64,000 nt of DNA, from positions 62,001 to 126,000 of the forward strand of contig NZ_CP014544.1 of assembly GCF_001586255.1 (NCBI RefSeq), written 5' to 3'. Shown here one piece after another: positions 48,314-51,629 of the stretch. Position numbers and translations under genes: made by a program. Origin of the DNA: Zhongshania aliphaticivorans. Its GTDB lineage: Bacteria; Pseudomonadota; Gammaproteobacteria; Pseudomonadales; Spongiibacteraceae. Below the pieces are notes generated by a model, which had not been told where the DNA came from, searched no databases, and was given only the letters and a program-made list of their open reading frames with translations. Position 1 is the first letter of the stretch. The number at the start of each line of letters is the position of its first letter.

Positions 48314-48715
48314 TTACTCGTCGTTTAGATTCTTAAAACGATGAATTTGGCGGCGCTGCTTTTTGTTGGGGCGCTCGGGGTGCAGGGCGCCCGCCGCGGC
48401 GCCAAGTATTTTACGGTCGGCGGCGAGTTGCTCGCGAGTGCGAATGCTGTCTGCGGTTTCACAGTACAGCAGTGCGGCCTCCGGCGCGCCTCGGCGCTGG
48501 TCAGAAAGCGCAATAACATCCACAATTTTGTTGTCCCAGCCGGTGCGAATGGTGAGTGTTGCGCCAATGTGCACTTCTTTACTTACTTTACAGCGTTCGC
48601 CGTTGTAGTGAACCTTGCCGCTTTCGACGGCTTGCTTGGCGAGACTGCGGGTTTTATAAAATCGCGCGGCCCACAGCCATTTGTCTAGGCGAATGCCGCT
48701 GGGCGCTTCAGCCAC
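48314..48715 (-). CDS. hslR: Hsp15 ribosome-associated heat-shock protein
   Basis: 133-residue RNA-binding protein with the S4 domain opening GIRLDKWLWAARFYKTRSLA, VESGKVHYNGERCK. It binds stalled 50S subunits carrying nascent chains. The start is the GTG at 48715, with GGGAG 8 bases before it; this overlaps the end of the upstream yrfG gene by 8 bp. The C-terminal basic tail (PNKKQRRQIHRF) is typical. Confidence 0.93.
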   Translation of the reverse strand: MAEAPSGIRLDKWLWAARFYKTRSLAKQAVESGKVHYNGERCKVSKEVHIGATLTIRTGWDNKIVDVIALSDQRRGAPEAALLYCETADSIRTREQLAADRKILGAAAGALHPERPNKKQRRQIHRFKNLNDE

Positions 48716-49385
48716 GATACGTCTCCCGTTTGGGAATGGGTAGAACTTCACTAAAGTGCTGAATAGCTGGATAGGTCAATTGCTCGCGAATCGCCTGTTT
48801 GCTGTCGGGTTGGCGCAGCGTGAGTAGGTGGCGGATGCCGAATTTGGCTGCGGCATCGAGCACACTGGCGGTGTCATCTACGAGTAAGGTGCGGGCCGGA
48901 TCAAAATCCCAGTGTTGGCGCAGGCGGTGCCAGAACTCTGGATCCTCCTTGGGCTTGGCCAGCTCGTGGGAGGTAATCATCTTGTGCATCCAGCGCGCGA
49001 GGTCGGTGTGTTCAAGCTTTAAATTTAAACTGTCGCGATGGGCATTAGTGACCAGCCAGGTTTCGCAGTGGCTATTGTCTAAGGCCGTCAAAAAGTCAGC
49101 GGTACTGGGGTGGGGGGCAATCAAATGAGCAATTTCGCGCTTTAGGGCGACAATGTCGACATTGAGCTGGTTAGACCAATAATCTAGGCAATACCAATTT
49201 AGCGAGCCGCGCTCAGCCATGATGCGCTTTATTAAATCGTGTGCAACTTGCTCTGGTTCTCCGCCGTGTATTTCAGCGTAGCGCTTGGGGAGGTGTTGCG
49301 ACCAGAAAAAGTTGTCGTAGTGCAGGTCTAATAAGGTGCCGTCCATGTCGAGGAGGACGGTGTCAATTTCTTGCCAATTTATCAT
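48708..49385 (-). CDS. yrfG: GMP/IMP nucleotidase (HAD family)
   Basis: 225 residues, close to E. coli YrfG. HAD motifs: DMDGTLLDLHYDNFFW (motif I), TNAH (motif II), KPKED-type region AKPKEDPEFWH (motif III), and LLVDDTASVLDAA (motif IV). Dephosphorylates purine nucleotides. Alternative start 49406. First gene of the conserved yrfG-hslR-hslO run. Confidence 0.92.
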   Translation of the reverse strand: MINWQEIDTVLLDMDGTLLDLHYDNFFWSQHLPKRYAEIHGGEPEQVAHDLIKRIMAERGSLNWYCLDYWSNQLNVDIVALKREIAHLIAPHPSTADFLTALDNSHCETWLVTNAHRDSLNLKLEHTDLARWMHKMITSHELAKPKEDPEFWHRLRQHWDFDPARTLLVDDTASVLDAAAKFGIRHLLTLRQPDSKQAIREQLTYPAIQHFSEVLPIPKRETYRG

Positions 49386-49411
49386 AGTTTGCCGGGTCTG
49401 AAGCACCGGCC

Positions 49412-49588
49412 TTAATTTACCGCCCGGGCTTTATTGAGTTTACTACTGACTGCATCACGCATTTCGATGACTTCGGCGTAATTTACGTTTAGCCACCATT
49501 CAGCGCGACTGTTGCCGTAGGCACTGATGGTGTTAGCACCGCGGCGCGATTCTGGGTAAAACGTGTTGTCAGATTTGGTCTGGGCCAT
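49412..49588 (-). CDS. Tiny WWLxVxYAE protein, paralogue A
   Basis: 58 residues (MAQTKSDNTFYPESRRGANT and onward). Its middle, AEWWLNVNYAEVIEM, is shared with three neighbouring small genes. The N-terminal part is polar and has no signal peptide; the short C-terminus is basic (SSKLNKARAVN). AGGA lies 6-9 bases before the ATG. It lies 26 bp from the yrfG start. I do not recognise this family. The conserved core reads as an amphipathic segment with two tryptophans, which may bind a partner. Part of a row of four paralogues; see B, C and D. Confidence 0.72.
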   Translation of the reverse strand: MAQTKSDNTFYPESRRGANTISAYGNSRAEWWLNVNYAEVIEMRDAVSSKLNKARAVN

Positions 49589-49655
49589 GGTCGTTCCTCG
49601 TTACTTGCTCGTTGATGTGTTCATTGAGCAAACAAGGTACTGCGAGGCCTAACTT

Positions 49656-49680
49656 GGGAGTATAGGGAAAAGTCCGTAGC
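49656..49680. promoter_or_regulatory. Shared upstream element, copy A
   Basis: GGGAGTATAGGGAAAAGTCC lies about 68 bases upstream of paralogue A. It aligns with the elements at 50006 and 50652; the common form is GGG-GTATA-(C)GGAAxAG(C/T)CC and then TAC or TAG. Probably promoter or operator DNA. Inference from three aligned copies. Confidence 0.4.
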
Positions 49681-49782
49681 GAGTGAACCTGTGTATTGAA
49701 ACTGTGAACTGGTTACGGTTTTGAACGGGGTAGGGGGAATGTGACGGCGTATTGCCAAACGTTGAGGCGACGTTTGGCTCTG

Positions 49783-49950
49783 TTAACGACTAACTTGATT
49801 CAAAGCAACAGCTGCATGATGTACTTCAAGTACTTCGGCGTAATTGATATTTAACCACCACTCACTCTGCTTAATACCATTGTTATTAAGCGACTGTTGG
49901 GCGTGCGAATTAGCACCAAAAATAGTTTTGTCTGCTTGCTGTGTGCTCAT
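49783..49950 (-). CDS. Tiny WWLxVxYAE protein, paralogue B
   Basis: 55 residues (MSTQQADKTIFGANSHAQQS and onward) with the core SEWWLNINYAEVLEV. GGAG sits 6 bases before the ATG. Closest to paralogue D; both have an IFGxN motif near residue 10-16, a KxSEWWLN core and an xxHAxxAL tail. Family unknown. Upstream, 50006-50030, is an element shared with A and D. Confidence 0.74.
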   Translation of the reverse strand: MSTQQADKTIFGANSHAQQSLNNNGIKQSEWWLNINYAEVLEVHHAAVALNQVSR

Positions 49951-50005
49951 TGTCTGCTCCGTAGTCAGTGTCGTGATGGTGTTACTTTACCGTTGGCAGC
50001 TTGTG

Positions 50006-50030
50006 CGGGGTATACGGAATAGCCGCTACA
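50006..50030. promoter_or_regulatory. Shared upstream element, copy B
   Basis: GGGGTATACGGAATAGCCGC lies about 57 bases upstream of paralogue B. Contains the palindrome GTATAC. Best-conserved copy together with the one upstream of paralogue D. Confidence 0.45.
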
Positions 50031-50070
50031 CAAAATAGTAGATATGCGTTATTGAGTGATTGGGTGGTGC

Positions 50071-50262
50071 TTATTTTTGCGGCTTTAGGCGTTGACGTAC
50101 GGCTTTGGTGTCGATGGCGGTAGCCATATCGATGTCTTCAGCGTAGCCAACTTCTAGCCACCAGTCATCGCGATGACTGCCAAACCGGCGTTTTGCTGTT
50201 GGCTGTTCGTCGATTTGCTGAAATGGCGTGTTGTTTTGTGGTTTATCGTCAGGGGTCGTCAT
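50071..50262 (-). CDS. Tiny WWLxVxYAE protein, paralogue C
   Basis: 63 residues. It is the most divergent member: a longer polar N-terminus (TTPDDKPQNNTPFQQIDEQP), core DDWWLEVGYAEDIDMATAID, and a basic tail (VRQRLKPQK). No clear ribosome site upstream and no copy of the shared upstream element was seen, so it may be translated differently. Its membership in the family is based on the core alone, which is conserved at WWL, V, YAE and the acidic residue. Confidence 0.68.
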   Translation of the reverse strand: MTTPDDKPQNNTPFQQIDEQPTAKRRFGSHRDDWWLEVGYAEDIDMATAIDTKAVRQRLKPQK

Positions 50263-50417
50263 AGCAGTTGCGCGTGAAGTGGATGAACACCAAACTTGTT
50301 TAGTTATTCAAGTATAGAATCTTTTACGCAGTGCGCCACTTAATAGATGAGTTAGGTGGCGTTTGAAATAATAAAAATACAGATCTTTTATGTTTGGCCA
50401 GCGCTGGTGCTAAGTAT

Positions 50418-50591
50418 TTAGTTGCCGCGACGCTGTAATGCCGAAACTGCATGATTAATCTCAATGGTTTCTGCGTAGTTAACATTCAACCACCACTCAC
50501 TACGCTTGGCACCATTTTGGGTAAGTGATGCTTGGCGCATCAAGTTATCGCCAAAGATAGAGTTGTCGATTGTGCGAGTAGATGTAGTCAT
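50418..50591 (-). CDS. Tiny WWLxVxYAE protein, paralogue D
   Basis: 57 residues (MTTSTRTIDNSIFGDNLMRQ and onward), core RSEWWLNVNYAETIEI, ending ALQRRGN. It aligns with B along its whole length. Between it and the TetR gene lies a hairpin. Family not recognised. The four genes face the same way, with gaps of about 190, 120 and 155 bp, so they have or could have separate promoters. Confidence 0.74.
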   Translation of the reverse strand: MTTSTRTIDNSIFGDNLMRQASLTQNGAKRSEWWLNVNYAETIEINHAVSALQRRGN

Positions 50592-50651
50592 GTTCTTGCC
50601 CCGAAATATGTTGTTTTCGTGTATGGAGCTACTTTATCTATATCCGGCTTT

Positions 50652-50676
50652 AGGGTGTATGCGGAATAGCCCTTAC
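50652..50676. promoter_or_regulatory. Shared upstream element, copy D
   Basis: AGGGTGTATGCGGAATAGCC lies about 62 bases upstream of paralogue D. The GCGGAATAGCCC part matches copy B at 9 of 10 positions before diverging. Confidence 0.45.
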
Positions 50677-50742
50677 AAGGGTCAGGGTTTCTGGGCACTA
50701 AGAGGGAGTTGTGGCAAGGGTTTTAAGTTAAAGCGAGGCGTG

Positions 50743-50761
50743 GCGGGCCTATTAGGCCCGC
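50743..50761. other. GC-rich hairpin after tetR
   Basis: GCGGGCCT (50743-50750) and AGGCCCGC (50754-50761) form a perfect 8 bp stem with a 3-base loop immediately after the TetR stop. No T run on the minus strand, so its role as a terminator is doubtful. Confidence 0.5.
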
Positions 50762-50767
50762 ATGGTA

Positions 50768-51346
50768 TTACAACATCAGGGCGAGCATGCTGGCTTTAAA
50801 TTGCTCTTTGGTGCTGGGAGATTGGCGGTAGGAAATAACTAGACGCCCGACTATTTTGATTAGGTCGTCGAGTTTAATACTGCGTTTATTGCGCGCATTA
50901 TAGGCATCTAAGGGGGCTTGTAATAGCTCGCGCCAATGCTCGTCAGACTCTTCGGTGTCAATGTGTGGCGAGGCCTCTGCCGCGTTCATGCCCGACACTA
51001 AATCTATTTTTCCAGCCTCAGGTGGCCGATAGGTGGCGGCAAACCAAATGCACTCTTCGAGCATAAGCGGAAAATTATTGTCATGCAGCGTAGCGATATC
51101 TTTTATCTTGTAAAACATCCGCTGCCGCTCAATTTCGATCAGCGCGGTAATAATATCGGACTTACCGTTAAAGTAGCGATATACCGTTCGGCGGGTGACA
51201 TTCGCCACTTTGGCAATATCTTCAATGGTGGTGGACTTAATGCCCTTCGTCATAAAACAGTCAACGGCGGACTTCAGTAGGATTTTTTTACCGGTATCGA
51301 GGTCGTCGACCCGTGCCCCATTGCCCCAACGTTTGTTTGTTTTCAT
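50768..51346 (-). CDS. TetR-family transcriptional regulator
   Basis: 192 residues. N-terminal helix-turn-helix: DCFMTKGIKSTTIEDIAKVA, NVTRRTVYRYFNGKSDII. The C-terminal ligand domain is unlike named families I can recall. Divergently arranged 280 bp from the KAS III gene, so it probably controls that gene and itself. A possible link to the adjacent tiny genes is unproven. Confidence 0.87.
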   Translation of the reverse strand: MKTNKRWGNGARVDDLDTGKKILLKSAVDCFMTKGIKSTTIEDIAKVANVTRRTVYRYFNGKSDIITALIEIERQRMFYKIKDIATLHDNNFPLMLEECIWFAATYRPPEAGKIDLVSGMNAAEASPHIDTEESDEHWRELLQAPLDAYNARNKRSIKLDDLIKIVGRLVISYRQSPSTKEQFKASMLALML

Positions 51347-51629
51347 AGCAAGTCTGCTCTTCAGCGCCTTTTAAAGTGTCACTATCGTATCATGTTGTAA
51401 TCTTGCGAACGTCGTTAAAGCCTGAGAAACAGGTAGTGGATTGTACGTATTTCCTGCCTAAATTTTGTGATTCAGTAGGCTTTATTTACAATTCTTAGTC
51501 GGTATTCGCCCTCAGAAGTTCATACGCCACATAAACTAGGTACTCGCCGTGTGCCGAGGTTCTCGTCGGGTGACACTGCTCGCATGGCTGGGCATAATGC
51601 GGATCTCGCAACTTCACATTGAGGTTTTG

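Follow-up and report, generated by a model that had tools for sequence, protein, structure and literature searches.

A conserved family of small WWLxxxY proteins encoded upstream of yrfG in Spongiibacteraceae

The stretch of DNA analysed here (the window) covered 64,000 nucleotides of the Zhongshania aliphaticivorans genome and carried a row of four small genes on its minus strand, which we designated A, B, C, and D. An earlier note had described four same-strand ORFs at this locus, and all four were confirmed. Specifically, A (49412 to 49588), B (49783 to 49950), C (50071 to 50262), and D (50418 to 50591) started with ATG and contained 58, 55, 63, and 57 codons, respectively, for proteins with the same numbers of amino acids. 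The core peptides quoted in that note were correct as well. These were EWWLNVNYAEVIE in A (49463 to 49501), EWWLNINYAEVLE in B (49825 to 49863), DWWLEVGYAEDID in C (50128 to 50166), and EWWLNVNYAETIE in D (50460 to 50498), all on the minus strand, and the pattern WWLxVxYAE was common to the four. C was the most divergent copy. When we searched the organism's own genome with a four-row profile, these four copies were the only significant matches.

The reported flanking genes, yrfG and a TetR gene, also held up. The yrfG gene (48708 to 49385, minus strand), which codes for a GMP/IMP nucleotidase of the HAD family, matched its NCBIfam model above the cut-off and was the constant downstream neighbor, and a TetR-family regulator gene (50768 to 51346, minus strand; Pfam TetR_N) was located on the upstream side. 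Only 26 nt separated the stop codon of A, the yrfG-proximal copy, from the ATG of yrfG, and these two genes were probably co-transcribed. The genes downstream of the small genes were yrfG, hslR (Hsp15), hslO (Hsp33), and pckA, with hslR scoring 147.8 bits, just under the cut-off of 148.

No match above a curated cut-off was found in Pfam or NCBIfam, no convincing match was found in PHROGs or PADLOC, and two profiles yielded no match among PDB chains at E values of up to 10. The only Pfam models touched were DUF5495 (PF17599) and GA-like (PF17573), with E values of 0.01 to 0.1 over about 20 to 30 residues. We rejected both identities as chance-level matches because the scores fell well short of the cut-offs (16 versus 27 bits and 14 versus 25 bits), and the model that was touched varied from copy to copy. 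The papers that we searched contained nothing on the family. Thus, the family was undescribed in the databases searched, as the earlier note had supposed, and it belonged to a kind that is already known, namely, conserved small proteins. We also considered a mobile (phage- or plasmid-borne) element, and this idea was not supported because tblastn searches produced no plasmid match for copy A and no phage match for copy D. An AlphaFold2 model of A, made with 22 aligned relatives, showed no confident fold (pLDDT 58, pTM 0.24) and a single C-terminal helix at residues 37 to 56; a low-confidence model that rests on such a shallow alignment cannot demonstrate disorder.

The earlier note proposed counting the copies in related genomes. 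With the four-row profile, the family was detected in 20 of 21 Spongiibacteraceae genomes and in all 18 of those that were of good quality, with one to four copies per genome; in other species, the per-genome E value was as low as about 1e-29. The carriers included Zhongshania antarctica, Z. marina, Z. aliphaticivorans, Z. aquimaris, Spongiibacter pelagi, S. thalassae, S. marinus, and Neomelitea salexigens, as well as a further genus of the family Spongiibacteraceae. In all of the Spongiibacteraceae loci whose gene layout we examined, the copies were located directly upstream of yrfG-hslR-hslO-pckA and on the same strand as yrfG, and the gap to yrfG was 26 to 41 nt for most of the yrfG-proximal copies. 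The other flank was usually a TetR gene, which was the commonest upstream neighbor across the family's genomes, or, alternatively, a pair of acyl-CoA dehydrogenase-like genes and then a TetR gene. This pair (cluster c12) separated the small gene from the TetR gene at six loci (L144, L143, L145, L146, L114, and L115) and was missing at other Spongiibacteraceae loci, including the window.

Most Zhongshania genomes had a single copy of the A type, and A was the copy with orthologues throughout the Spongiibacteraceae. All four copies were present in the window genome and in Z. antarctica, one metagenome-assembled genome had A, C, and D, and several Spongiibacter-type genomes had two copies. In the tree, B and D were sisters (support 95/87), which bore out their reported closeness; the sequences were short, and many forks were without resolution.

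Selection on the proteins, as the earlier note had suggested, was apparent from the orthologue comparisons. The dN/dS values were 0.05, 0.12, 0.11, 0.14, and 0.11 for pairs of A orthologues, 0.07 and 0.09 for D, 0.17 for B, and 0.07 for C, yielding a range of 0.05 to 0.17. With the exception of copy C, the 12-codon core contained zero or one amino acid change in orthologue pairs, even though synonymous sites were near saturation in many of the same pairs. Purifying selection was strongest on the WWL motif. Because 20 of 21 genomes were matched, dN/dS was low, and the core was nearly unchanged where synonymous sites were saturated, chance was excluded as an explanation; A, B, C, and D are real protein genes under purifying selection. 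Constraint was not uniform across all copies. The divergent distal copies of S. marinus and Neomelitea gave values of 0.42 to 0.53, as did the paralogue pair A/C and a further pair in which there were only three differences. In addition, the Z. antarctica copy of C (L041:4319-4505) had a 4-base deletion before the WWL core, which resulted in a frameshift; C was intact in the window. Frameshifts in relatives, which had been named as evidence against the proposal, were therefore a feature of copy C only, and the Z. antarctica frameshift means that the extra copies are partly dispensable.

An order-wide search with a profile built solely from Spongiibacteraceae sequences revealed further short open frames, the best of them at an E value of 1e-6 per genome. 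With such distant relatives included, the family extended to seven or more other families of the order and reached at least f1, f4, f9, f13, f29, f30, f32, and f46; f22 had a WY variant. The fuller pattern of these relatives was [IVM]F-x-D[RP]R...DRR...(C)RR...[DE]RR...WWLxxxY[AVC][ED]. The two W residues and the Y were invariant in 27 sequences, and a profile-profile comparison between the Spongiibacteraceae and the distant group gave a probability of 96.8% over the WWL region. All four window copies had WWL, a Tyr four residues past the L, A, V, or C after it, and usually an acidic residue. They had none of the DRR arms, and they kept the I/V-F motif or a remnant of it (TFY in A and TPF in C). 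We assigned the window copies to the wider family because of the profile match and the synteny. The earlier description of a conserved WWL core and a variable N-terminal half was correct about the core; the conservation was not confined to it, since the I/V-F motif upstream is also part of the family, together with the DRR repeats in the distant relatives. If the DRR form is ancestral, the window copies would be a derived branch that kept I/V-F and WWLxxxY and lost the DRR arms.

Synteny with yrfG was kept in f30, in which the gene was near yrfG and, in L124, directly upstream of it. In f30, the space separating yrfG from the WWL gene also held the gene for a second, unrelated small conserved protein of about 80 amino acids (...KLLEELVELEKQMEVLSSQ...); this protein formed cluster c14 (L117, L118, L119, L121, and L122) and its gene often adjoined cysQ. 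The relatives in f9, f13, f29, f32, f46, and f4 were not beside yrfG. Going by names read off the sequences, their neighbors included an FKBP-like gene in f29, cysS in f13, and lpxH-like and miaE-like genes in f32. Because the neighborhoods of the distant relatives differed from family to family, the gene context named no pathway. A phosphatase-neighbor theme (yrfG, and a HAD-type hydrolase gene in f13) was dropped because the neighbors of the other relatives were unrelated. Beyond the order, searches at the class and phylum levels yielded no convincing family member, and the weak matches found there (E values of 3e-4 to 1e-2) were judged to be chance; G556, for example, has an internal stop.

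In one genus of f4 (g5), two genomes encoded the DRR-WW module at the C-terminal end of a Cro/C1-type helix-turn-helix (HTH) protein. The E values for HTH_26 (PF13443) in these two fusions (L136:6302-6949 and L186:5783-6403) were 3.4e-6 and 1.9e-6, and the module at their C-terminal end was VFADRRKTVDRRRR...RRQVLDRR...EWWLKVDYLDG. The fusion was seen in this genus only. In contrast to Cro/C1-type regulators, the window proteins had no HTH, and the C-terminal module was the only part in common.

Nearly every Spongiibacteraceae copy had its own promoter region containing TAnGGGnTTTTCCCTATAC. Among 26 non-redundant regions taken from upstream of Spongiibacteraceae copies, a 17-bp motif, TAnGGGcTtTTCCCTAT, was found with a score of 361 versus about 177 in shuffles, and it was mostly located 70 to 100 nt ahead of the ATG. 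The 17-mer was followed by AC, and in 22 of the 26 regions TAnnnT came after it at one set distance, an offset of 22 nt from the 17-mer; at other offsets, the mean for TAnnnT was 0.14. In the window, the elements were on the minus strand. The element of A was TACGGACTTTTCCCTATAC followed by TACCTT at the fixed spacing (49634 to 49678), which was an exact match to the pattern. The elements of B (TAGCGGCTATTCCGTATAC, 49984 to 50028) and D (TAAGGGCTATTCCGCATAC, 50631 to 50675) were both followed by TAAAGT at that spacing, and a weak element, TGCGTAAAAGATTCTAT (50314 to 50330), was located upstream of C. When 18 genomes of the genus were searched with the bipartite pattern, allowing at most one mismatch, all of the matches but one were at family genes. 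The exception, upstream of a FIST-domain gene, was kept in two genomes. In the window genome, this site (L242:1501-1545; G000:C1:292328-292372) had one mismatch and was just upstream of the FIST-domain (NosP-like) gene, and the other genome with such a site was that of Z. antarctica (L245). A single-block motif with up to three mismatches showed no genome-wide enrichment; the specificity was in the bipartite element only. The element was not found upstream of the distant relatives.

The element may be read in two ways. In the case of A, the sequence TTCACT-17-TATACT (49687 to 49659) overlapped the element, and this may be a σ70 promoter whose spacer and −10 region are overlain by the dyad of a regulator. 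Alternatively, the dyad may be that of an activator and be centered near −42, with the downstream TAnnnT as the −10 region. Under either reading, the copies appear to be under common control, and the adjoining TetR gene is a natural candidate for the regulator that acts on the element. In the segment from 49680 to 49725 of the window, a second TTCAC repeat (GTTCACAGTTT) was located about 22 bp upstream of the −35-like TTCACT of A and was common to most Zhongshania yrfG-proximal copies.

The location of the genes raised the idea that the small proteins are dedicated partners (inhibitors, activators, or scaffolds) of the YrfG nucleotidase or of the Hsp15 and Hsp33 chaperones encoded alongside. 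The position directly upstream of yrfG in all of the examined Spongiibacteraceae loci, mostly with the short gap described above, and the nearby gene in f30 were in line with such a role, but the six other families listed above had their relatives away from yrfG and the extra copies had promoter elements of their own; we consider this role unlikely. A similarly low probability was given to small nucleic-acid-binding proteins whose DRR arms would bind RNA or DNA and whose WWLxxxY would stack on bases or stabilize a dimer, with the Spongiibacteraceae proteins having lost the arms and kept the second half of the job. The Arg-rich repeats seen in distant relatives fit this proposal, as does the HTH fusion. 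However, the strongest conservation was in WWLxxxY and its acidic residues rather than in the arms, and the window copies A, B, C, and D were near neutral in charge (8, 3, 10, and 6 K plus R residues versus 6, 4, 11, and 5 D plus E residues).

Leader peptides of the trp type are short ORFs with tandem Trp codons upstream of an operon, and the window genes resembled them in being short ORFs with an invariant tandem Trp and an operon downstream. If they acted in this way, ribosome stalling or attenuation would control the downstream operon and the Trp codons would sense Trp. Several differences, however, made this explanation highly improbable: amino-acid-level conservation extended well past WW, the genes were paralogous and had their own promoter elements, three of the four copies did not adjoin a larger gene, the downstream genes were unrelated to Trp, and one relative had the module joined to an HTH. 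Moreover, positions 48600 to 51500 contained no terminator-like (attenuator) hairpin, and there was no Rfam match. The earlier note had also suggested substrates of a modifying enzyme, and a row of tiny paralogues that share a conserved core would indeed suit secreted signals or the precursors of modified peptides (RiPPs). This part of the proposal was not supported, and we see very little chance that it is correct. Among the genes linked to the 36 loci whose layout was examined, there was no modifying (maturation-type) enzyme, protease, or exporter; conservation was in the motif itself, in the middle of the protein, and the ends varied, rather than a conserved leader preceding a variable core; the housekeeping location was fixed; and one relative was an HTH fusion.

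The best explanation, which we put forward tentatively and at slightly less than an even chance, is that the proteins are small, largely disordered, partner-binding regulators whose WWLxxxY docks on a common conserved target. Small regulatory or partner-binding peptides were also suggested in the earlier note and are still the best guess, which the HTH fusion and the common promoter element support indirectly; the earlier interpretation was thus upheld in part, namely, for protein selection and an undescribed family but not for modifying-enzyme substrates. We observed selection on a short motif, a promoter element common to the copies, and a single domain fusion; we infer the docking and the modulator role. 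Specifically, WWLxxxY(A/V)E would be a short docking motif with alternating large hydrophobic residues (W-L-V-Y), followed by acidic residues and a probable helix, and it would fold when bound to a conserved partner in the cell. With its lone helix and no confident fold, the AlphaFold2 model of A was weakly consistent with a peptide that folds on binding. The free small proteins would be trans-acting modulators or adaptors, the HTH fusion would bring the same docking motif to DNA, and the extra copies would be differently tuned versions under common control. As a first guess, the partner may be a component of gene expression. A bolder and rather improbable extension is that WWLxxxY(A/V)E could be a hitherto undescribed module that docks onto a core component of bacterial gene expression (RNA polymerase, the ribosome, or a global regulator). 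One marine gammaproteobacterial group would use it free, as tiny proteins, and another would use it as part of a fusion with a DNA-binding domain, with dedicated promoter control.

The distant relatives with the DRR pattern and the HTH fusion, along with the bipartite promoter element, are new here. The results add a clearly delimited, conserved family of small proteins, one that gene finders using a 60-codon cut-off would largely miss. The WWL motif is short and invariant enough for mutation. Because the locus is fixed, species naturally carry one to four copies, and the promoter element is distinctive, the partner and the regulator should be directly testable in cultured species such as Z. 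antarctica and S. marinus.
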